NCBI GenBank assembly: GCA_905221145.1
Contig: CAJNCA010000001.1
Coordinates: forward strand, 62,001 to 126,000
Direction of reading: 5' to 3'
Length of the DNA stretch: 64,000 bases
From: a bacterium
Lineage (GTDB): Bacteria > Bacillota > Bacilli > Lactobacillales > Streptococcaceae
The notes under the pieces were generated by a model, which was not told where the DNA came from, made no database searches, and saw nothing but the letters and a program-made list of their open reading frames with translations. The translations under genes were made by a program, and so were the position numbers. Position 1 is the first letter of the stretch. Every line of letters begins with the position of its first letter. This document shows, in pieces, positions 15,345 through 28,341 of this stretch.

Positions 15345-16848
<1,504 letters not shown>

Positions 16849-16874
16849 ACGAATGACAAAATAATAAACGATTT

Positions 16875-16916
16875 AACTCTAAAGATTAGACAATCAGTCT
16901 GATTTTTAGGGTTTTT
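16875..16916 (+). terminator. Terminator after dltD
   Basis: A 17-base-pair stem (16875-16891 with 16897-16913, three G-T pairs, loop AATCA) followed by TTTCTTT. It ends the dlt transcript, so the following island is transcribed separately. Confidence 0.85.
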
Positions 16917-16997
16917 CTTTATCCTAATAAAAATGTGTATTTATAGATATTGGTGTTTAAAAAGCAGGAACTTCATCTGGCTAGAGAACTCATATAG

Positions 16998-17006
16998 TGG
17001 TATAAT
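16998..17006 (+). promoter_or_regulatory. Extended -10 promoter of the glycosylation island
   Basis: TGGTATAAT, an extended -10 box with no good -35 at 17 bases, 72 bases upstream of the first island gene. The region 16917-17077 holds no other visible feature. Confidence 0.6.
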
Positions 17007-17077
17007 TTAAGAAACAGAATGAAAATGGTTTTAGTATGGTTAGATTGATCGTTTTTGTATGAATATCGAGGGGAAAA

Positions 17078-18430
17078 ATGGATATAGATAGAACTCTTTC
17101 AGTACAGATTCAAGGTTTGTTGGTGTTTGAAAGTCCTCTTCATCATGATGAGCGTGGCTATTTTTTAGAGAACTGGCGTAAAAAAGATTTGGTTGCAAAT
17201 GGGGTACCAGAATCCTTCTTTCATCATAAACTTCAAAATAATGTGTCTGTCTCAAAGCAGGGGGTTATTAGAGGAATGCACTGTCAAGGCTATGAAAAGT
17301 TGATGACAGTAGCCTTTGGTAGCTTTAAAATGATTTTTATCGATCTACGAATAGATTCTCCAACTTACAAATCTGTAGATGTGATAGATGTCAAACCTGG
17401 TAGGGCTGTTTTTGTCCCTGGCGGAGTAGCCAATGGAGCACAGTCGTTAGTTAACAATGGGATATTGAATTATCTGGTTGCTGATTATTATGATCCACAT
17501 AAAAACTATTTAGGTATTACACCACTAGACAAAGATGCTCATTTGTCGTGGGATTCTCTTTTAAAACCAATCATTTCTGAAAAAGACCAAGCTGCTAAAT
17601 CTTTTAAAGAAGTTCTTGAACTAATTGAATCAAGCAAGAAGAAAGTTGCTTTAATTGGATCAAGAGGTGCAGTTGGGAAAGTTTTATTTGATACATTAAG
17701 TAAACTATCTGATATTGATTTAAGTTGTTTCAATAGAAATAATATTGAAGAAGCTTTGAAAGATTCTTATGATGTGGTGATTTGTACTGCTCCGTCATCA
17801 GAAAAATTATTGACTAATCTAGGTTTGAAAAACAATGACTTGGAAATCGATAAATTACTGAATGTCCTAAAAAAGATTCAAACAGGTCATATGATTTTAG
17901 TATCTACGAAGTCTGTATTTGATAGTGGTTCCAGATATAGTGCGATTCATCAAGAGATTTATAATGGCGTAATTGAAGCTCATCAAAATAAGAATACTAT
18001 TTATATTATGGACACCTTATATGGAAAAACACTGAAAAAGGGCTTTGTTCATGATTTGATTTCTAGACAATGGACCTATATTTCAAATGATATTGTTTTG
18101 GACAAGCCTGAGTTAGAAAAATATTATCAAAAAGTAAATGATCAGCTGTGGTCTCTAGTAGAGCCTCTTCCAAATGAATTATTAAGTACTTTAGAGCCAA
18201 TTTCTGATATTTATCCTGATGAAATGTGCTATCAAGTGACGGCAATAAATGATTTAGTTGATCATCTGGTGGCGAATTTAAATAGGATTGATGGAGTGAA
18301 ACTGGGGATCAATCAGTCTGAAATTTTTACAGGTAAACAAATTAAGAATTTAGTAAAAAATCCGGATGATTCCATTTTAGGACAATACTTTAAACAGCAA
18401 AAAGGAGATTCGAATCTTGAAAATTTATGA
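17078..18430 (+). CDS. Fused RmlC-like sugar epimerase and NAD(P)-binding (RmlD/reductase-like) protein
   Basis: A 450-residue two-domain protein. Residues about 5-165 are a cupin of the dTDP-4-dehydrorhamnose 3,5-epimerase type: HDERGYFLENWRKKDLV, VIRGMHCQGYEKLMTVAFG (His and Lys expected in the active site), VFVPGGVANGAQSLVNN and YLVADYYDP. Residues about 185-450 begin with a Rossmann motif (KKVALIGSRGAVGKVLFDTL) and have later VSTKSVFD and YGKTLKKGFVH, suggesting a sugar-nucleotide reductase, although the usual YxxxK is not obvious. Together with the RmlB-like enzyme two genes on, it could make a dTDP-6-deoxyhexose. The C-terminal half is visibly AT-rich. ATG 17078 with GAGGGG upstream. 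The exact sugar product is unknown. Confidence 0.7.
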   Translation: MDIDRTLSVQIQGLLVFESPLHHDERGYFLENWRKKDLVANGVPESFFHHKLQNNVSVSKQGVIRGMHCQGYEKLMTVAFGSFKMIFIDLRIDSPTYKSVDVIDVKPGRAVFVPGGVANGAQSLVNNGILNYLVADYYDPHKNYLGITPLDKDAHLSWDSLLKPIISEKDQAAKSFKEVLELIESSKKKVALIGSRGAVGKVLFDTLSKLSDIDLSCFNRNNIEEALKDSYDVVICTAPSSEKLLTNLGLKNNDLEIDKLLNVLKKIQTGHMILVSTKSVFDSGSRYSAIHQEIYNGVIEAHQNKNTIYIMDTLYGKTLKKGFVHDLISRQWTYISNDIVLDKPELEKYYQKVNDQLWSLVEPLPNELLSTLEPISDIYPDEMCYQVTAINDLVDHLVANLNRIDGVKLGINQSEIFTGKQIKNLVKNPDDSILGQYFKQQKGDSNLENL

Positions 18431-19190
18431 AAATAATAGAGGTTTTCAACTAGGAAATTTGCTCTATCTTCTCCTACAAGCGCATAGAGATCGGATGATG
18501 GGCTATGAGGAAAGTTATGTTTTACGAACAGGATATTTTCAGTTTGCCCAAACCTTTTTTCCAAAAACTGCTGCCTTATTTTCAAAAGCAAATGGTATCG
18601 AATTAGAAGATTTCGGTTATTTTCAAGAGGCAGGTGTTGACTATTCTTCAGAAGAATTGGACTCTTTTTGTAGAGAGTATTTGATTGAGCCAGTAGTTGC
18701 AGCTTCTACTCAATTTGAAGAGAAGAATGTGACAATTGCCATTAGGAGAACGGATTTTCTCAATGAACGAAATAGAAAAAATTACGGTTATAACTCTCAG
18801 TTGTATATCTGCTCTTGTTTAGACAAGATAGCAGACATTGAAGAGGCTGATTTTCAACATTTGACCATCAGAATTACTTCAGATGATGTTGCCTGGTGTC
18901 GTGAAGAATTGGTACCTTTTCTACATACTCAGTACCATTTTGAAAATCCGATTATAGTTGAGGAGCAGGATATTCAAGATAACTTTTTACAACTGTATAG
19001 CTGTAACAAGTATTTCATTTGCCCCAATTCGACCTATTGTTACTGGGTAGGCTATATTTTAAGACTGACCAAGCCTTTTGTAAAAGTGTTTGTTCCTGAT
19101 TTTAATACTCTGATTGAACAAAATGGAAAACAAATTGCGGATACAAGAGAATGGGAAGTTGTCAGTGTTGACCGTACTGGCTTTGAGTGA
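18417..19190 (+). CDS. Glycosyltransferase family 11-like (alpha-1,2-fucosyltransferase type)
   Basis: A 257-residue protein resembling GT11 enzymes. The nucleotide-sugar motif of the HxRRxDF kind appears as VTIAIRRTDFLN (about residues 103-114), and a downstream FICPNSTYCYWVGYILRL matches the SNSTFSWW-type motif of the family. It begins with TTG at 18417, supported by AAAGGAG 9 bases upstream, and overlaps the preceding gene by 14 bases, so they are translationally coupled. GT11 proteins transfer fucose or related 6-deoxyhexoses, which fits the deoxysugar enzymes on either side. The HxRR His is replaced by Ile-Ala-Ile, so the match is partial. Confidence 0.62.
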   Translation: MKIYENNRGFQLGNLLYLLLQAHRDRMMGYEESYVLRTGYFQFAQTFFPKTAALFSKANGIELEDFGYFQEAGVDYSSEELDSFCREYLIEPVVAASTQFEEKNVTIAIRRTDFLNERNRKNYGYNSQLYICSCLDKIADIEEADFQHLTIRITSDDVAWCREELVPFLHTQYHFENPIIVEEQDIQDNFLQLYSCNKYFICPNSTYCYWVGYILRLTKPFVKVFVPDFNTLIEQNGKQIADTREWEVVSVDRTGFE

Positions 19191-19211
19191 AATGTGTTAA
19201 AGGAAAAATAA

Positions 19212-20207
19212 ATGAACTATAAAAATATCGTTGTGACTGGTGGAGCTGGTTTCATTGGTTCAAATTTTGTTCGATACCTTAAAGAGACTTATAAGGGTAT
19301 TCAGATTACGATTTTGGATAATTTGACTTACGCCTCTTCTCTGAAAACTATCGAAGATTTGCTGGATGACGGAGTAGCCTTCCATAAACTGGATATCGCA
19401 AATGAGTTGGAATTAGGTAAATACATCGATGAAGGAGTTGATTTGATTGTTCATTTCGCAGCGGAATCTTTTAATGATAAGTCTTTGCACGATACGTCTG
19501 TTTTTGTGAAGAGTAATATCGTTGGGACGCACAATCTTTTAGAGTTAGCTAGGAAGTATGATATCCGTTTCCACCATATTTCAACAGATGAGGTTTACGG
19601 GGATTTTCCATTAGAAAGTAAGGATAAATTCACTGAAAAAACGCAGTATAATCCAAGTTCTCCTTATGCTGCTACAAAGGCCTCTGCAGATTTATTGGTA
19701 AAAGCTTGGGTTCGTTCTTTTGGTGTCAGGGCTACGATTTCAAACTGTTCAAATAATTATGGACCCTATCAAAATCCTGAAAAATTTATCCCAAGACAAA
19801 TCACCAATCTTTTAACTGGTCAGCAGGCAGTTCTATATGGAGCAGGACTGAATATTCGTGACTGGATTCATGTCAAAGACCATTGTCGAGCTATTGACAC
19901 CATTATTGATAAGGGTGTGATTGGTGAAACCTACTTGATTGGAGTAAATAATGAGCGCACGAATATCGAAGTTTTACAGAAAATCTTGTTGCAGTTAGGA
20001 AAATCTCAGGAAGATTTCAAGTATATAGCAGATAGACCAGGACACGACCTTCGTTATGGAATTGATGCTAGTAAGTTATATACTGAATTAGGTTTTACAC
20101 CTCTCTACGTGGATTTTGATAAAGGCTTAAAAGAAGTTATCCATTGGTATCAAGAACATGAAGATTGGTGGCAAGAGATGATTGCACAAAAGCAAGATGC
20201 TAAGTAA
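19212..20207 (+). CDS. dTDP-glucose 4,6-dehydratase-like NAD-dependent sugar dehydratase
   Basis: A 331-residue extended short-chain dehydrogenase of the RmlB type. Visible motifs: GGAGFIGSNFVRYL (NAD binding, residue about 10), HFAAESFNDKSLHD, HISTDEVYGDF (catalytic Thr-Asp-Glu) and SPYAATKASADLL (YxxxK), then NNYGPYQNPEKFIPRQI and the C-terminal RPGHDLRYGID. RmlB enzymes convert dTDP-glucose to the 4-keto-6-deoxy sugar. HFAAESFND replaces the commoner HLAAESHVD, so substrate or product may differ slightly. No rmlA homologue lies in the island, so the nucleotide sugar must come from the housekeeping pool. Confidence 0.82.
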   Translation: MNYKNIVVTGGAGFIGSNFVRYLKETYKGIQITILDNLTYASSLKTIEDLLDDGVAFHKLDIANELELGKYIDEGVDLIVHFAAESFNDKSLHDTSVFVKSNIVGTHNLLELARKYDIRFHHISTDEVYGDFPLESKDKFTEKTQYNPSSPYAATKASADLLVKAWVRSFGVRATISNCSNNYGPYQNPEKFIPRQITNLLTGQQAVLYGAGLNIRDWIHVKDHCRAIDTIIDKGVIGETYLIGVNNERTNIEVLQKILLQLGKSQEDFKYIADRPGHDLRYGIDASKLYTELGFTPLYVDFDKGLKEVIHWYQEHEDWWQEMIAQKQDAK

Positions 20208-20238
20208 GAGTTTGTAAGAATGTTATGAGGAGTTAAAT

Positions 20239-21825
20239 TTGGAGAATATAATTTTTTGTTCGTCTCCCTTCCAGGTTTTAGTCGCTAAAGAAGTTGTACA
20301 GACTGTCTCAGAAGACTTTATCGGGATTTATCTAAAGATGTCAAATGATTCGAGACAGGATTTTTATGCTGAACGAATGGCAGAATTTTGTAAGGAAGTC
20401 CTTGTTTTAGAAGGAAAAACAGTCTTTAATGATATTCAGGAAGCCTTAAAAGACAGGGCCATCAGTAATCTCTATCTAGCCAGCTTAGACAATCCAGTGG
20501 CTCTTAGCATCTTTAACCCTAGCACAATGAATTTGTATACCTTTGATGATGGTAGTACTTCCATTGTACCCCTCAATCTGTATACACAAAATCTTGAGAG
20601 GGTCATTCCCTATGCAAACTTTACCTTGAGAGAGATCATGTCATTGTCAAATAGACATTATACGGTATTTGAGGACTGTGTCCTTTTTCCAAAAGACGAG
20701 CAGGTTTTGTTAAAGCTTCATCTGGAACCAAGTCATTTTCATAGGGCTAAAAATGGCAAGAAAATAAGTGTTTTTCTGGGGCAATTTCTAGGCTCTCTCC
20801 TTTATCAGGAAGATTTGGAACTTACTCAAAAATTGACTGCTAAAGTTTTAGATGAACAGAAGATTGATTACTACTATCCCCATCCTAGAGTACCTTTGAA
20901 TCCCTATCAAGATAAATTGAAAGAAACAAGATTTTGCTTTGAAGAAGAAATCTATCTTTTGTTAGAAGAATATGAGTTCGTTGAGGTACATGGTTTTTAC
21001 TCAACTTCGCTTTTGTTGGTTAAAAATATAGAGGGTGTATCGGTTCATGGGTATAGGACTTTTTTAACAACTCATGAATCAAATGTTTTTGCAAAACTAG
21101 GTGTGCCCTATCAAAATGTGTCCCAATCGGACACACCTGTTGATATTGTCATGCCTGTCTATAATGGCGCTGAAACCATTAGCCAAACGATTGATTCTGT
21201 TTTAAATCAAACTCATCAAGCCTTTCGTCTGCTAATTGTGGATGATGGTTCGACAGATAATACAGAGGAAGTATGTAAGCCATATCTAGTAGACGAGCGA
21301 ATACAGTATATCAGGGAAGGTCATAAAGGGATTTCAGAAACTTTAAATCGTGGAGTAAGCCTGTCTCAAACGAAATATGTAGCTAGACAAGATGCAGATG
21401 ATGTATGGATGCCTTGGCACCTAGATTTTCTCTTGCAAGAGTTAGAGAAAAATCCTCAATTAGATCTTATCGGGGCTAGAGTTGTCGCAGAAGAAGATGC
21501 CGTAACAGATAAAATCAAACGGAATCAAACACATCACTTATCAGGGGAAAAGTTGTGGTTAGAGCTTGCTTATCAAAATGTATTTAACCATTCAACCGTC
21601 ATTTTTAAACGCTCTGCTTATGATGAAGCAGGATGCTATGATGATAAGTGTGATGGGTTTGAAGATTGGCATTTGTGGGCTCGTATAGTTACAAAGGACA
21701 ATGCTTTAGTGTTGAATGTTATGACAACTTACTATCGCTTATCGGAGCGTTATAAAAGAGAGATGCTTTTCCGAGCAAGACTAGCAAGAAGTCGTGGATT
21801 AAGATTAGAAGATGTATTGGACTAA
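20239..21825 (+). CDS. Two-domain glycosyltransferase: GT52-like N-terminus fused to GT2 C-terminus
   Basis: A 528-residue fusion. Residues 1-300 begin ENIIFCSSPFQVLVAKEVV and contain TFDDGSTSI and DYYYPHPRVPLNPYQ, features of GT52 sialyltransferase-like proteins. From about residue 303 a complete GT2 domain follows: VDIVMPVYNGAETISQTIDS, LLIVDDGSTDNTEEVC, KYVARQDADDVWMPWHLDFL (DxDD) and CDGFEDWHLWARI (ED acceptor motif). It therefore could add two different sugars. The start is TTG 20239, with GAGGAG 7 bases upstream. It is in one transcript with the flanking genes (31- and 3-base gaps). Confidence 0.7.
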   Translation: MENIIFCSSPFQVLVAKEVVQTVSEDFIGIYLKMSNDSRQDFYAERMAEFCKEVLVLEGKTVFNDIQEALKDRAISNLYLASLDNPVALSIFNPSTMNLYTFDDGSTSIVPLNLYTQNLERVIPYANFTLREIMSLSNRHYTVFEDCVLFPKDEQVLLKLHLEPSHFHRAKNGKKISVFLGQFLGSLLYQEDLELTQKLTAKVLDEQKIDYYYPHPRVPLNPYQDKLKETRFCFEEEIYLLLEEYEFVEVHGFYSTSLLLVKNIEGVSVHGYRTFLTTHESNVFAKLGVPYQNVSQSDTPVDIVMPVYNGAETISQTIDSVLNQTHQAFRLLIVDDGSTDNTEEVCKPYLVDERIQYIREGHKGISETLNRGVSLSQTKYVARQDADDVWMPWHLDFLLQELEKNPQLDLIGARVVAEEDAVTDKIKRNQTHHLSGEKLWLELAYQNVFNHSTVIFKRSAYDEAGCYDDKCDGFEDWHLWARIVTKDNALVLNVMTTYYRLSERYKREMLFRARLARSRGLRLEDVLD

Positions 21826-21828
21826 ACT

Positions 21829-23079
21829 ATGGTGAAAATATTTACAATAAAGGAAGGCGTGCCTGTAAGAACTTATGGTTTTGAAAGAAGTCAATTGGCA
21901 CGTCAAGAAATTTTTAAAAGTCTGTCCCTAGAACAGGAACTCGTTATAACAAATCTGGAGAAATTTGTACCGAATTTTGTAGAAACGTTAGAAAAACTTG
22001 GTTTTGAAAACTTCTATCATGTTATTTTTGACCAGTCAGATCTGGCTAGACAAAAGCCGAGTGTGGAAAAAGAATTTGTTCAGGGACTAGCTAATGTCAG
22101 TGAAGTCGAGTACACAAAAGATGGATATGTAGGACTCGTTCATTATCAAAATGGAGATATAGAATGCTATACTTCACAATTACTGTATCGTTTCCAATAT
22201 CAAGAAAATCTCTTTACTCTTTTTGATAGTAAAGGGGAGTTGCTGAAGGGGGATGTGAGTGAAAATTACCATTCTTACCAAAATCTAAGAAGTGGGGAAA
22301 CCTACACTCAATGGCAGTTAGTCAGTCTCTATCTAGCGAATAATTCTACAGTGAAAGATTGCTTTATCATTGATATGGTCAACGAATACCCTCTCCAATT
22401 GAGGAAATTTTTCCAAAATACGGGAAGAAAGCTATTTGCTTATACCCATTACAATATTTTAGACCCGATGATGAAGTTTGTCTTACAAGGTTGGTGCCAG
22501 AATATCGTTGTAAGCCCTGTTTTGGAGCAACTAATAGGGAAAGAAAAGGTTCGCTTTTTACCTCCAATGTTTGTGGATGGAGTTTTGGAAAAAGAATATG
22601 CAAGAGTCACCGATTGGTGTATCGTTGGCAATATGACGATGATCAAACGGTGTGCCTGGGCGATTGAGGCCTTTCGACAAGTGCCAGATAGTCAGTTGAC
22701 GATTTATGGCAATTTGCCAGATGGTTATAGCCAGAAAGACTTGCCGTCAAATGTCCATTATGCTGGTTTTCTAGAAGAGGTTCCTTATGAGAAGCACCAA
22801 GGCTATCTCTCCTGTTCTATGAGTGAATGCTTTGCCAATTCAGCTGTAGAAGCATCTGCCAAGGGTTTGGTCTGTCTCTTGTCTGATACAGATTTAGCTC
22901 ATAGGTACTATAAGAGCCAATCTAAAGCTGTCTCAACATTTGGTGACATCGGGGAGTTAATCTTGTGGCTCAATGCTTATCAAAAAGAAGGTCGTTACGC
23001 GTCAGCAACATTCTCTAAAGACTATCAAAAAAAGGAAATTCTAGAGATGTATCAGTATGTGTTATCCTTAGAAATATGA
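21829..23079 (+). CDS. GT4-type glycosyltransferase, GtfA/GtfB-like
   Basis: A 416-residue protein. The C-terminal half carries a GT-B Rossmann domain with the GT4-type signature MSECFANSAVEASAKGLVCLL (about residues 332-352) and LTIYGNLPDGY before it. The N-terminal half has a beta-rich stretch (YTKDGYVGLVHYQNGDIECYT ... LFTLFDSKGELL, about residues 90-140) reminiscent of the add-on beta domain with which GtfA/GtfB of the serine-rich-adhesin system hold their protein acceptor. That similarity is by eye. It lies directly upstream of the LPXTG adhesin gene, which is the obvious candidate acceptor. The RBS is weak; the start is 3 bases after the previous stop, so it probably depends on coupling. 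Confidence 0.6.
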   Translation: MVKIFTIKEGVPVRTYGFERSQLARQEIFKSLSLEQELVITNLEKFVPNFVETLEKLGFENFYHVIFDQSDLARQKPSVEKEFVQGLANVSEVEYTKDGYVGLVHYQNGDIECYTSQLLYRFQYQENLFTLFDSKGELLKGDVSENYHSYQNLRSGETYTQWQLVSLYLANNSTVKDCFIIDMVNEYPLQLRKFFQNTGRKLFAYTHYNILDPMMKFVLQGWCQNIVVSPVLEQLIGKEKVRFLPPMFVDGVLEKEYARVTDWCIVGNMTMIKRCAWAIEAFRQVPDSQLTIYGNLPDGYSQKDLPSNVHYAGFLEEVPYEKHQGYLSCSMSECFANSAVEASAKGLVCLLSDTDLAHRYYKSQSKAVSTFGDIGELILWLNAYQKEGRYASATFSKDYQKKEILEMYQYVLSLEI

Positions 23080-23085
23080 TATAAT
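23077..23085 (+). promoter_or_regulatory. Extended -10 promoter for the adhesin gene
   Basis: TGATATAAT (23077-23085) straddles the stop of the upstream glycosyltransferase gene and is about 97 bases before the adhesin ATG. The following TTGAAAGCGTAAAAC resembles a degraded cre motif but mismatches near its end, so I do not call it. Confidence 0.55.
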
Positions 23086-23181
23086 TGAAAGCGTAAAACT
23101 TTCTGGGTTTTATAGTTCTTAACGCACATTTTATAGATTTAAAGTATAAAAAACAATGAAATTTTAGGAAGGTCGTGTTTT

Positions 23182-26100
23182 ATGTTTCATACTGATAGAC
23201 AGGAGAAATTTTCTCTTCGTAAGTATAAAGATGGTCGAACAGATTCCAAGTTAATCGGAGCAACGATTTTGGCCACAGGTGTGGCTTTAGCTGTTGGTGC
23301 AAGTCCAGTAGCTGCTAATGTTACTTCTAATGGTACAAATGAACCTACAATAGTGAGCGACACAGCCAAGGTTGAATCTGCAAAGGCTACGACTTTTACA
23401 GACGATACAGATGCATCAAAAACTTTTAAAGTTGATGCAGTTTTGGATGGAGGGGCAACCGAGCCAACAAAAGCTAACATCAATACTGGTGATACTGACG
23501 GTAATGACACAGTGAGTTTCAAATCAGAAGCAACTGTCAATTATAAACTGGATTCTGATAAGTCATTACTAAAAACAGAAACAGTAGAAGCTGGAAAAGG
23601 TACGGTTACAACACCTTTTGATAAAAAAGGTCTTGCTTATGACGCAGATGGTAAAGACTACCGTGAATCAACAGTGGCTAAAACTGGGGATGCTATTAGT
23701 GAAGCCACTGGAAAAAAAGATACAGTAGAAGCGAATAATAAAGTTTATGAATATGTACGTTCAGAAGTTGAAGGTACTGACAAACCAACTTATGACAAAA
23801 CACATTTCAATGATATCGAAGCTCCAGTATCTCCAGAAGGAATGCATAATAAACTAGGAGAAATCGACTATACAAAAACAACAGGTAAAGTTTACTTAGT
23901 TGAAGAAACAGCTGATGGACAATATGGTAAATTTGTAGAAGCGAGTGGCGTAACTAGTGACGAAGATGCTGTTGCAAAATGGAAAGCTGGAGAAGCTACA
24001 GCTAAAGATTTTACTAAAGCTAATGTAACTCTTCAAGAAGGAGATACAATTCTTGTCCTTGATAAAGATACTTATGCGACTACAAATACTGTAGAAAGTA
24101 AAAGTAAAAAAACAGGTACGAATGTCACTTATGTTGCGGTAAAAGAAACTGTTTATGACGGAACTTCCACTGATATTTGGGGTATGACGTATGCAATCCT
24201 TAGAGAAAATTATACAGCCATTAAAGATATCGGGGATGATAATGTCTTTGGAACTGCTGACGATAATGAAAGAAACGCAACTTCGAATGGTACTCAAACA
24301 AGAAAATCAATGGATGTGTTTGATGTGTCAGGAAGAGAAGATAAAAATTCTAAATATCTTCAAAAAACACCAGATTTAAACACGTCTAATGCTTCGGTGA
24401 AAGATATCTTGAAAGATGTTTTTGCAACTGGATATCGACTTGTTGATTTCTTTGCGAGTAATGCTTCAAAACCTACGGATATTGAAGCAATTAATAGCGT
24501 CAAAACTAATTTAGATAACAAAGTAGACGAACTCGTTAATTATATGAAAGATAATAATATTCGAGTTGGTTCATCTAATGGTAAAGTTGGGTTCTATGTA
24601 AATGACGCTTCAGCTGACAATGACTCATCTAAACTAGATCAATTTGAAACAAAAGTTAGAGAAGTAAGTACGGTTTTAGATGCTTTACCTATTATTGATA
24701 AAGTAAAAACTTCTGGTGTTGCTTCAAAAGAAGAAGGTCAAAAATACGGAGCATCTGATGCTGATGTGTTTCCTGTTTCTAAAGATCTTGTTGAAACTTA
24801 TGAATTTACAACTGTAGGTGGTTTAGTAGTAACAACAAACACTAAGTATGATAGAAATGATGGACATGATGTGATTTGGGATAAATACCCGATAAACACA
24901 GAAGAAAAAATTAATATTTCGAATGTGACAACTAATGGAACATGGGGTGTTACAGTATCAGATGATAAATCACAAGCTACGTTGACTAAATCTGGACGTG
25001 AAGTAAAAGAATGGGAAGCTTCGGATGAAACAACAACGGATACTGTTACAGTTGCTAAAAAAGAAATCATCACACCAATCCGTGCTTATAAAGTAATGGG
25101 TGAAGAAAAACCGACAGTGACTCACTATTACAACTTAAAAATCACAAAAGAAGAAGCTGGTACTGCAACAGCTACTAAACAAGGTAGTGTAGTTATCAAA
25201 TACGTAACTACTGATGGAAAACAATTAAAATCAGAAACTGATAAAGACAATGTTACATTAGAAACGAAAACTGTTGTAAGCTTGTACTCAGGTGAAACAA
25301 AAGTTGATGAACGTACTGATATCGTACCTGTAGAACAAAACTACGACACAACTTCAAAACCAAAACAATATCCAACATTAGTAGATGCTGATACTGGATT
25401 TACATATGAGTATGTTGGTCTAAAACAAGGTTCTCCAGCTGCTAGTGGTAAAGTAGTAGAAGGAACAACAGAAGTTGTTTACGAATACCGCTTAGTAAGT
25501 GAAGAAGAAAAAACTCCTTCTAAATCAGTTGCGACTAAGACAGGTTCTGTTGACGTGAAACACGTTGTTATCAACGAAGATGGAACGTTAAAAACATTAA
25601 AAGAAACAGAAGTAGTGAAAAACAATGTTCCTTTAGAGTATGAAGATACGTACGTAACTTACTCAAAAGGTGTAAAAGTATCTGAACGTAAAGAAAAACG
25701 CGCAGTTACTGAAAAATACGACACTACTGATAAACAATACCCAACACTTAAAGATGAAGCTACAGGGTTAGTATATAAATATGTAGGACAAACATCTGAT
25801 TCAGCTCCAGCGACTGGAGACGTAACAGAAGGTGAAAAACACGTTATCTACAGCTATACTCTAGATAAACAAGAAGAAACAACACCATCTAAAGTAGTTG
25901 AAACTAAAGGATCAGTAGTTGTTAAATATGTTGATGCTGACGGTAATGAAATCAAAGATTCTGCGAATGTAGTAACAGATGCAGTTGTTAAAACAACGAA
26001 AACATACGCTACTAAATCAGGAGAGGTTGTACTTTCAACACGTGATGAAGTAACAGAAAATGATGTAAACTACAATACTGTTGAAAAGAAAGTTGATACA

Positions 26101-28149
26101 ATCACTAAAGATGGTAAGAAATATGTCTTCCGTGGTGTATATGCAGTTTCGGACAAATTCAACAATACAATTGAAGAAACAGGTAAGGTAAAAGAAGGAA
26201 CTACAACGGTTGTTTATCAATACGATTATGTTATTCCAGTAGATCCAACTAAGCCTAACGAAGGTGACAATAATCCTCCAAAACCAGAGGATAAAATTCC
26301 TAATGACCCACAAAACCGTTCATACAAAGACTTAGGTCTCTTAAAAGAAGTGAAACGTGTTATCACTTATGTTTACGAAAATGGACCAAAAGCAGGACAA
26401 GAAGCTAGTGCGCCTGTTAACCAAACAGCTCGTTTCACAAGAACTGCAGAAATTAACAGTAGAACTGGTGAAGTGGTCTACACAAGCGAGTGGACTCCAG
26501 AACAAAAACTTGCAGAAGTAGTGTCACCAAAAATCGATAAATATGCAGTTGATAAAGAAAAAGTAGCTGAATTAGCAGTAACGCACGAATCTGAAGACAG
26601 TAGCGAAATTGTTAAATACCGTGAAAATCCTGAAATTATCGAACATGATGCAGCAAAAGACAAAAAAGGTTCTGTAGTTGTTAAGTATGTAGACGCTCAA
26701 GGAAATGAAATCAGTGAAGCGGTAACTGTTAAAGATAATGCAGTAGTAGAAAAAGCTACGACAAAAGTCTATGCAAATCGTGAAGAAACTACTTATACAG
26801 CAACAAATGAAGAATACAGCACTGTAGAGAGTCGTAAAGACGTTATCGAAGCTAATGGTAAGAAATATAAATACAGTGGTATTTACGCAGTTTCTGATAA
26901 ATACAATAATGTATTAGAAGAAACAGGTAAGGTGAAAGAAGGAACTACGACAGTTGTATACCAATACGATTATGTTATTCCAGTAGATCCAACGAAGCCT
27001 AACGATGGTAATCAAAATCCTCCAAAACCAGAGGATAAGATTCCTAATGATCCAAAAGGTCGCACCTACAAAGATTTAGGTTTACTAACAGAAGTGAAAC
27101 GTGATATCACTTATGTTTATGAAAATGGACCAAAAGAAGGTCAGGAAGCAAGTGCACCAGTTGAACAAACTGCTCGCTTCACAAGAACTGCAGAAATCAA
27201 CAGTAGAACAGGTAAAGTGACGTACACAACCGACTGGACTCCAGAACAAAAACTTGTTGAAGTAGTATCGCCAATAATTGAGGGTTACAATGTAGATAAA
27301 GCTAAGGTAGAAGAATTAGCTGTAACACATGAATCTAAAGATTCAGCAGTTGTTGTTAAATACTCTCAAAATAAACCAAACAGTGTACGTGACTACGCTA
27401 AAGATAAAAAAGGAACAGTTATTGTTAAATTCGTAGATATTAATGAAAATTTCCTTGCGGATGATGTAGTTGCTAAGAACAATGTCATTGTGGCTGAAGC
27501 GACAACTATAACTACTGGTGATAAAGAAGAAACAACTTACAAAGCAACTGGTGAAGAATATGCGGTGACACCACCAGAAACGATCGAAGTAGATGGAGTG
27601 ACATTCCGATTGAAACGTGTCCTTCCAGCAGGTGATAAGTTTAAGAATACTGTGGAAGAAAAAGGATTGGTTAAAGAAGGTGTTACTACTATTGTTTACC
27701 AATATGTAATGCAAATTGATGCTCCAACAGTTGATAAACCAGAATTTGATGGTGGAATAGTTCCGTTAGATCCTCCAGTTGTGGAAATTCCAGAGTTGAA
27801 GATTCCTGAAGAGCCTAAACCAGAACCAACTCCGACTCCGACTCCGACTCCAACTCCAGAGCCAAATCCTGCACCTACACCTACACCACAACCAGCTCCA
27901 ACACCTCAACGAAACGAGACTCCAAAACCACCTGTACCTGTGGCAGAAGATTCGGGAACACCGGAAGCTCCGAATAGACCAGTACCTTCAAATTACAATC
28001 CAGATGGGAACACTTACCCAGCTCCATCAACTGAGGTAGCTCAATTGCCAAATACTGGTACGGAATCGAACGCAGCCTTGGCAGCATTCGGATTTGTTGG
28101 AATGTTGAGTGGTCTAAGTATCGTTCTTCGTAAGAAGGATAATGAGTAA
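23182..28149 (+). CDS. LPXTG-anchored surface adhesin with MucBP and Muc_B2 repeats
   Basis: A 1655-residue wall-anchored protein. The N-terminus has a YSIRK-like signal (KFSLRKYKDGRTDSKLIGA then a hydrophobic stretch, cleavage near SPVAA-N). Residues about 50-665 are a unique, Thr/Asp/Lys-rich region with no family I recognise. From residue about 668 there are five MucBP-type modules, each opening GSVVVKYV or similar (DNA starts 25183, 25543, 25909, 26668, 27412); modules three and four are each followed by a Muc_B2-like module (ARFTRTAEINSRTG.V.YT..WTPEQKL). A Pro/Thr linker, sortase motif LPNTG, hydrophobic segment and charged tail RKKDNE end it. MucBP proteins bind mucin glycans. Own extended -10 promoter, AGGAAGG ribosome site and terminator; placed behind three glycosyltransferase genes that may modify it. 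Confidence 0.9.
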   Translation: MFHTDRQEKFSLRKYKDGRTDSKLIGATILATGVALAVGASPVAANVTSNGTNEPTIVSDTAKVESAKATTFTDDTDASKTFKVDAVLDGGATEPTKANINTGDTDGNDTVSFKSEATVNYKLDSDKSLLKTETVEAGKGTVTTPFDKKGLAYDADGKDYRESTVAKTGDAISEATGKKDTVEANNKVYEYVRSEVEGTDKPTYDKTHFNDIEAPVSPEGMHNKLGEIDYTKTTGKVYLVEETADGQYGKFVEASGVTSDEDAVAKWKAGEATAKDFTKANVTLQEGDTILVLDKDTYATTNTVESKSKKTGTNVTYVAVKETVYDGTSTDIWGMTYAILRENYTAIKDIGDDNVFGTADDNERNATSNGTQTRKSMDVFDVSGREDKNSKYLQKTPDLNTSNASVKDILKDVFATGYRLVDFFASNASKPTDIEAINSVKTNLDNKVDELVNYMKDNNIRVGSSNGKVGFYVNDASADNDSSKLDQFETKVREVSTVLDALPIIDKVKTSGVASKEEGQKYGASDADVFPVSKDLVETYEFTTVGGLVVTTNTKYDRNDGHDVIWDKYPINTEEKINISNVTTNGTWGVTVSDDKSQATLTKSGREVKEWEASDETTTDTVTVAKKEIITPIRAYKVMGEEKPTVTHYYNLKITKEEAGTATATKQGSVVIKYVTTDGKQLKSETDKDNVTLETKTVVSLYSGETKVDERTDIVPVEQNYDTTSKPKQYPTLVDADTGFTYEYVGLKQGSPAASGKVVEGTTEVVYEYRLVSEEEKTPSKSVATKTGSVDVKHVVINEDGTLKTLKETEVVKNNVPLEYEDTYVTYSKGVKVSERKEKRAVTEKYDTTDKQYPTLKDEATGLVYKYVGQTSDSAPATGDVTEGEKHVIYSYTLDKQEETTPSKVVETKGSVVVKYVDADGNEIKDSANVVTDAVVKTTKTYATKSGEVVLSTRDEVTENDVNYNTVEKKVDTITKDGKKYVFRGVYAVSDKFNNTIEETGKVKEGTTTVVYQYDYVIPVDPTKPNEGDNNPPKPEDKIPNDPQNRSYKDLGLLKEVKRVITYVYENGPKAGQEASAPVNQTARFTRTAEINSRTGEVVYTSEWTPEQKLAEVVSPKIDKYAVDKEKVAELAVTHESEDSSEIVKYRENPEIIEHDAAKDKKGSVVVKYVDAQGNEISEAVTVKDNAVVEKATTKVYANREETTYTATNEEYSTVESRKDVIEANGKKYKYSGIYAVSDKYNNVLEETGKVKEGTTTVVYQYDYVIPVDPTKPNDGNQNPPKPEDKIPNDPKGRTYKDLGLLTEVKRDITYVYENGPKEGQEASAPVEQTARFTRTAEINSRTGKVTYTTDWTPEQKLVEVVSPIIEGYNVDKAKVEELAVTHESKDSAVVVKYSQNKPNSVRDYAKDKKGTVIVKFVDINENFLADDVVAKNNVIVAEATTITTGDKEETTYKATGEEYAVTPPETIEVDGVTFRLKRVLPAGDKFKNTVEEKGLVKEGVTTIVYQYVMQIDAPTVDKPEFDGGIVPLDPPVVEIPELKIPEEPKPEPTPTPTPTPTPEPNPAPTPTPQPAPTPQRNETPKPPVPVAEDSGTPEAPNRPVPSNYNPDGNTYPAPSTEVAQLPNTGTESNAALAAFGFVGMLSGLSIVLRKKDNE
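25909..27411 (+). repeat. Two tandem ~750-base repeats inside the adhesin gene
   Basis: Unit 1 is 25909-26667 (759 bases) and unit 2 is 26668-27411 (744 bases), each encoding MucBP + proline linker (VIPVDPTKPN) + Muc_B2. A third, partial unit (27412-27720) carries only the MucBP part. The units are alike in protein but diverged in DNA, so the duplication is not recent; unit number could still vary among strains by recombination. Confidence 0.8.
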
Positions 28150-28210
28150 GATTTTAATGAGTTTCTAGTTATAAATTCTAGACCTCTTGAGTGAGGTAAG
28201 GTATGTATTT

Positions 28211-28238
28211 GGAGAAGACTTAGGTCTTCTCCATTTTA
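28211..28238 (+). terminator. Terminator after the adhesin gene
   Basis: A perfect 9-base-pair stem GGAGAAGAC / GTCTTCTCC with loop TTAG, followed by ATTTTAT. It closes the accessory island. Confidence 0.8.
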
Positions 28239-28271
28239 TATATAATTTGAAGAAAAAAGAGTTGTGTTTTC

Positions 28272-28328
28272 AAAAATAGATTCAGACACTGGGCACTTTA
28301 TGATGGAGATGTCAAGGAATTTCAATAG
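28272..28328 (+). pseudogene. dltD: Remnant of a second dltD 3' end
   Basis: The bases 28272-28328 read in one frame KNRFRHWALYDGDVKEFQ-stop, aligning with the true DltD end NERFFSKDWATYDGDVKEFQ-stop. The last 27 bases are identical to 16822-16848. There is no start or upstream coding sequence. It is followed by its own terminator and then the adc promoter, which is what would be expected right after dltD in a chromosome lacking the island. It therefore marks the right-hand junction of the inserted segment. Confidence 0.85.
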
Positions 28329-28341
28329 ATAATAGTATGGA

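Follow-up and report, generated by a model that had tools for sequence, protein, structure and literature searches.

A probable adhesin-plus-glycosylation cassette, outside the accessory Sec pathway, in an island imported between dltD and adcR of a Streptococcaceae genome

Glycosylation of streptococcal adhesins is often tied to serine-rich repeat proteins (SRRPs) and to the accessory Sec system. The SRRP islands, in the passages of PMC7661464 that deal with them, group in one locus the adhesin and its glycosyltransferases (GtfA, GtfB and accessory transferases that extend the glycan) together with accessory Sec genes. Wall-anchored adhesins may also be served by dedicated glycosyltransferases, as is the case for SdgA and SdgB, which act on adhesins with SD repeats in Staphylococcus (PMC3794999). 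The Pgf operon of Streptococcus mutans modifies surface proteins post-translationally, the adhesin Cnm among them (PMC5856776). For the pilus adhesin PilA of group B Streptococcus, there is evidence of modification with sialic acid, an N-linkage being suggested (PMC4583379). The YSIRK adhesin AsaA, present in S. oralis and in Gemella without accessory Sec, is inferred by its authors not to be glycosylated, partly because accessory Sec is absent (passages of PMC7846122).

We analyzed a 64-kb stretch of DNA (the window) which includes, between dltD and adcR, an 11.5-kb island of low GC content with a copy of the dltD 3′ end at either border (Table 1). The flanking genes encode DltD (Pfam E 6e-120) on one side and AdcR/C/B/A on the other; DltD shares only 73% identity with its counterpart in genome G001, and AdcR 100%. 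The original prediction placed between dlt and adc a self-contained block of five enzyme genes followed by an adhesin gene, and the six genes are present in that order, with intergenic distances of −14, 21, 31, 3, and 102 bp. The first of these corresponds to the overlap of the RmlC-reductase gene with the GT11 gene, which starts with TTG.

Table 1. Features of the island and its borders (window positions).
Feature	Positions	Strand	Basis
Left repeat, 3′ end of the dltD copy in use	16810..16849	+	35/40 identical to right repeat
Imported island between dltD and adcR	16850..28329	.	Alignment to empty G001 site; low third-codon GC
Terminator-like hairpin after dltD	16875..16913	+	Consensus scan only
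Extended −10 element TGGTATAAT, putative promoter of enzyme genes	16998..17006	+	
RmlC-type epimerase fused to atypical extended-SDR reductase (YxxxH for YxxxK)	17078..18430	+	
GT11-like glycosyltransferase	18417..19190	+	Pfam PF01531 E 3e-10
RmlB, dTDP-glucose 4,6-dehydratase	19212..20207	+	TIGR01181 422 bits vs. NCBIfam cut-off 365
Bifunctional GT52-GT2 glycosyltransferase	20239..21825	+	GT52 E 1e-14, GT2 E 7e-31
GT4 of GtfA/SdgB group, putative protein O-glycosyltransferase acting on the adhesin	21829..23079	+	GT4 E 9e-7
Extended −10 element TGATATAAT, putative adhesin promoter	23077..23085	+	
YSIRK/LPXTG adhesin with Muc_B2 domains, proposed acceptor (1655 aa)	23182..28149	+	
A3, N-terminal domain common to the adhesins paired with GT4s of the w, s, and third types	23584..24216	+	Alignment
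Terminator-like hairpin after the adhesin	28210..28233	+	Consensus scan only
Right repeat, orphan dltD 3′ end beside adcR	28290..28329	+	35/40 identical to left repeat

Compared with the described systems, the cassette resembles the SRRP islands in having an adhesin and transferases together, among them accessory transferases that could extend the glycan, and its GT4 is related to GtfA by the profile of its group. Unlike these islands, as far as the passages of PMC7661464 describe them, it lacks both serine-rich repeats and a second GT4, its adhesin carries a YSIRK signal, and neither SecA2, SecY2 nor any Asp gene appears in the gene list and domain search of the island. As with SdgA and SdgB, the GT4 gene stands beside its own adhesin; in contrast to their acceptors, this adhesin is devoid of serine-aspartate repeats, as judged from its translation and composition, and the single GT4 is accompanied by GT52-GT2, GT11, and sugar-nucleotide genes. 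A further hallmark of the Sdg systems is that the adhesin receives GlcNAc. Regarding Pgf, the GT2 half from the window matches PgfS weakly (E 4e-4), with no other Pgf match listed for the island proteins. An O-linked glycan and a dedicated cassette are proposed here, unlike the case of PilA, and glycosylation is proposed for a YSIRK adhesin, unlike the case of AsaA. The best reading is that the cassette works like the SdgB and GtfA systems, yet belongs to neither by the defining features tested. No description of such a cassette was found in the titles and abstract starts of open-licence PMC full text, nor in the passages of PMC6722419, PMC4863584, and PMC12979206.

The GT4 had been predicted to be similar to GtfA/GtfB, and profile comparisons relate the group to which it belongs to GtfA and SdgB. 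The GT4 profile matches the GtfA structures 4pqg (E 4e-23) and 5e9t, both named Gtf1 in the PDB, along nearly its full length; a 505-aa group-1 glycosyltransferase (7ec1/7ec3/7ec7), which we take to be SdgB, is matched more weakly than GtfA. Out of the 13 GT4 members described below, 10 match the NCBIfam model for GtfA, 8 that for SdgB and 3 that for SdgA; the window GT4, taken alone, matched no NCBIfam model, these three included. The profile places the window GT4 in the group of GtfA and SdgB, which O-glycosylate adhesins.

The adhesin includes Muc_B2 domains (E 3e-38) and an LPXTG anchor (E 8e-7). As anticipated, it lacks serine-rich repeats: serine accounts for 5.6% and threonine for 12.2% of its residues, and the richest 100 aa contain 28 S+T. 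Its gene contains two 300-nt repeats (26111-26410 and 26855-27154) that are 84% identical. MucBP repeats were considered as a common acceptor signal and rejected: as matches to the MucBP family occur in 19/19 genomes searched, and many of those listed (for example in G089, G048, and G001) lie far from any GT4, MucBP does not act as such a signal. For the N-terminal A3 domain, a profile was built from 15 GT4-linked adhesins, so that distant adhesins without a GT4 could be missed by it. The predicted fold of A3 is a poor model (mean pLDDT 55.9). The N-terminal region of the adhesin has 1614 relatives in the protein database, a point against the proposal, as the pairing with a GT4 was followed in the genome loci read.

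Homology of the window to the empty site of G001 extends up to position 16849 and resumes at 28290, with an overlap of 40 bp in G001 which corresponds to the dltD 3′ end. Third-codon GC ranges from 0.19 to 0.36 in the island genes vs. 0.38 to 0.49 in the flanking dlt and adc genes. The orphan dltD 3′ end is a scar of the import of the island, which likely arrived via recombination with a donor dltD; no integrase is found among the six island genes by gene list and domain search. A second dltD 3′ copy also exists at the related locus of G089, L031 (37/40), and is missing from L032 and L033.

For the distribution of the cassette, 284 Streptococcus genomes were searched with the GT4, and the 13 genes with E ≤ 1.1e-39, one of them interrupted, were counted; they belong to nine genomes. 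Four genomes carry a GT4 that is 72-93% identical to that of the window (w-type). Nine further genes (31-34% identity), including one from G091 that contains a stop, are either s-type or of a third subtype. More distant relatives (L018-L024, of 371 aa, L025, and L026; E 1e-10 to 8e-4) stand outside the count, as does a fragmentary GT4 of 138 aa that lies close to the NeuA gene of G048. Reading the neighborhoods of the 13 counted genes covered twelve regions, as L036 holds two of the genes. A YSIRK adhesin with A3 is present in the same cluster for 12 of the 13 GT4 genes; the remaining one (L042) is located at a contig end, and an A3 match near the start of another contig of the same genome (G227:C6) is consistent with a break at this point. 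Run against these 284 genomes, the A3 profile gave 12 matches, eleven of them on the contig of a GT4 cluster, in exactly the nine genomes that carry the GT4 (co-occurrence 9/9 vs. 0/275). Using the window's own adhesin region as query, six genomes were found, all within these nine. The co-occurrence expected in the original prediction thus holds, as the GT4 is not mostly found without the adhesin.

The nine carriers are related species and do not represent nine independent events. The clusters are located in at least four chromosomal settings and are also present in Granulicatella elegans and Gemella haemolysans, and these differing sites together with the two other genera are a stronger argument for the pairing than the nine-genome count. 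Identities between GT4s and between A3 domains were compared for 17 pairs, with one adhesin per GT4 (Mantel r 0.88, 0/10000 permutations); because near-identical loci (L032/L033 and L039/L040/L041) stayed in the set, the pairs lack independence. The comparison excluded the second adhesin at each of L045 and L046, the GT4 that is interrupted in L036, the locus L042, where no adhesin is within reach, and the pairs from S. suis. The high correlation arises because the three subtypes match. Fine co-evolution within subtypes was not found (r 0.14 in w, 0.34 in s), which suggests that domains are shuffled inside a subtype; the window A3 domain is 90% identical to one from Granulicatella, the corresponding GT4s being 64% identical. 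Taking into account that the dlt-adc site, empty in G001, is occupied in other strains by differing sets of genes, and that the island is imported, its genes might be chance neighbors at a recombination hot spot that collects adhesins and glycosyltransferases. We consider this very improbable in view of the co-occurrence figures, of the matching of subtypes across genera and of the many genes for MucBP proteins, among the matches listed, that are far from any GT4.

A dedicated system free of accessory Sec had also been proposed, and SecA2 does not exceed the cut-off in seven of the nine Streptococcus carriers; it does so in the other two, and in neither of the two carriers outside the genus. 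These counts, as well as those for NeuA and RmlA given below, cover the nine carriers among the 284 genomes, the window's own assembly not being one of them. Genomic data therefore lend good support to a dedicated, Sec2-independent glycosylation of the adhesin. We consider it likely, from sequence analysis, that the island is a horizontally acquired adhesin-plus-glycosylation cassette in which the GT4 would glycosylate the adjoining adhesin, and the product would be exported by the general Sec route. We infer the acceptor, the order of the steps and the sugars as follows. The GT4, which has neither a GtfB partner nor SecA2 in the island, would put the first sugar on Ser/Thr residues of the adhesin in the cytoplasm; GT52-GT2 and GT11 would extend and cap the glycan. 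RmlB and the RmlC-reductase fusion would supply a dTDP-6-deoxyhexose for one extension or capping step, and the GT52 half probably adds sialic acid where a partner cassette (NeuA, transporter) provides CMP-sialate. The glycosylated adhesin, once exported, would be anchored by sortase.

The island adjoins dlt, which modifies teichoic acid, and its transferases might instead add sugars to a polymer of the wall, either teichoic acid or a surface polysaccharide; the adhesin would then be a hitch-hiker that binds or presents this polymer. It also fits such a role that TarM, a teichoic acid glycosyltransferase, has the SdgB/GtfA fold (passages of PMC8561734). Nevertheless, we regard it as improbable: the six island genes include no polymerase, flippase or lipid-carrier transferase, the genomes with the GT4 and those with A3 adhesins are the same nine of 284, and 9 of the 12 sister regions do not adjoin dlt. 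Furthermore, the best solved relatives of the GT4 are GtfA structures and TarM is not among the best 10 listed, which does not by itself exclude TarM. Dedicated glycosylation of the adhesin, independent of accessory Sec, is the reading we prefer.

The identity of the sugars is less certain than dedicated glycosylation of the adhesin. Use of a 6-deoxyhexose, as originally proposed, stands in part: the three genes of the deoxysugar block are open in the window, but the module is complete in only three of the seven w-type loci. By its profile score, the RmlB of the dTDP-L-rhamnose pathway is present. The RmlC domain of the fusion (E 3e-36) matches the RmlC fold and superfamily, with 99 bits vs. 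the cut-off of 156 for the equivalog TIGR01221; the reductase departs from the YxxxK motif of RmlD. In Foldseek searches, the top 50 matches corresponded to the RmlC half only, and a second look at the SDR half gave tied matches. The GT11 protein gave only chance-level matches to solved structures. Among the nine carriers, RmlA is over the cut-off in G089 alone, which is also the sole genome with a full-length RmlC-reductase match among the matches listed, these being ranked with the best first; in the Granulicatella that carries the fusion, no RmlA is over the cut-off.

Pointers to sialic acid, namely the GT52 half and sister cassettes with NeuA, an SSS transporter, and GT52, had been overlooked. 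NeuA at ≥86% identity is present in exactly the nine carriers, the next best match in the 284 genomes being 46% identical. All eight non-w regions (L035-L042) hold GT52 and a NeuA-like cytidylyltransferase, and six of the eight an SSS symporter, which is broken in two of these six. The sister NeuA matches CMP-sialate synthetases (6ifd, E 2e-21), and the sister GT52 an alpha-2,3-sialyltransferase (2yk5, a meningococcal enzyme; E 3e-11). In the window fusion, GT52 (PF07922) is above the cut-off and, among the matches listed, aligns with the stand-alone, sialyltransferase-like GT52s from sister clusters (26 invariant columns over 12 rows, 6 fused and 6 stand-alone). The GT2 half matches nearly every genome among the matches listed and is uninformative. 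Decayed parts are seen at several loci: a stop in the GT4 of L036, and a broken SSS symporter in L041 and L042.

Under a variant of the proposal, the adhesin is glycosylated with sialic acid as the working cap, while the genes for the deoxysugar are either remnants or used for a different polymer. The incomplete modules, with RmlB broken in L034, are in line with it, as are the NeuA gene found at the deoxysugar site in L032 and L033 (with a stop in L033), the presence of NeuA in 4/4 Streptococcus genomes with the GT52-GT2 fusion (among the matches listed), and a reductase without the canonical lysine. Yet the altered motif occurs in 32/32 island-like relatives, and is therefore a family trait and not decay; moreover, the open genes in the window, and the RmlC-reductase/GT11/RmlB block retained beside GT52-GT2/GT4 in Granulicatella, argue against a relic. 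We hold this variant to be rather unlikely; the cap may be sialic acid, 6-deoxyhexose, or both.

The w and s kinds coexist in one cluster of Granulicatella elegans, L046. It comprises two w-type adhesins, GT52-GT2, GT4, RmlC-reductase (50%), GT11 (64%), and RmlB (70%), together with NeuA-like (30%) and SSS-like (34%) genes, an s-type GT4, GT52, and an s-type adhesin; a third-type pair (L052) lies elsewhere in that genome. In Gemella haemolysans the w and s kinds are in two clusters, L045 and L047. Within the stretches read, NeuA is found neither in these two nor in L052. It is conceivable, and we put it forward tentatively, that these cassettes make up one mobile family in oral Firmicutes, in which mucin-binding adhesins are self-glycosylating and do not depend on Sec2. 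Every adhesin subtype would travel with its own GT4, and interchangeable capping modules would serve for either scavenged sialic acid (SSS transporter, NeuA, GT52) or 6-deoxyhexose. If so, a host-like or strain-specific glycan would be carried by the same protein that binds host mucin. Should the cassette work as proposed, the link between glycosylation and accessory Sec would be broken, and testable acceptors are named. Were sialic acid to be the cap, commensals would show host-type sugars on their own mucin-binding proteins, with a bearing on immune tolerance, antigenic variation, and strain typing.

The perfect extended −10 pattern TGNTATAAT occurs six times in the window vs. 2.4 expected (six were reached in 5/100 shuffles), with one site upstream of the enzyme unit, one upstream of the adhesin gene and one at adcR. 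A promoter of its own had been predicted for the adhesin: a perfect extended −10 element does precede the gene, but a simple promoter scan of the + strand gave none between GT4 and adhesin and listed neither of the two island sites, so the putative promoters rest on the extended −10 motif. The element upstream of the adhesin is retained in L031, L032, and L033, and absent in L034. Terminator-like hairpins number seven in the window vs. 6.3 expected, and are weak taken alone.

Further GT4 genes lie next to genes for surface or secreted-looking proteins. For S. suis-type GT4s, 11 rows were obtained, eight of them with loci; a surface-repeat reading frame stands beside 8/8, with a MucBP match in at least seven of the eight, and BLAST detected no A3 domain in the linked proteins. 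In L054-L059 (S. suis), the more distant GT4 directly follows a repeat surface protein without a recognizable C-terminal LPXTG anchor, and in L056 GT52 and a NeuA-like gene come next. In seven Streptococcus genomes, the 371-aa GT4 gene of L018-L024 is upstream of a gene for a secreted-looking protein, and it possibly encodes another surface-protein-linked glycosyltransferase. Finally, a 498-aa GT4 gene of G123 (L025:1006-2502) is placed just upstream of a YSIRK-type surface protein.
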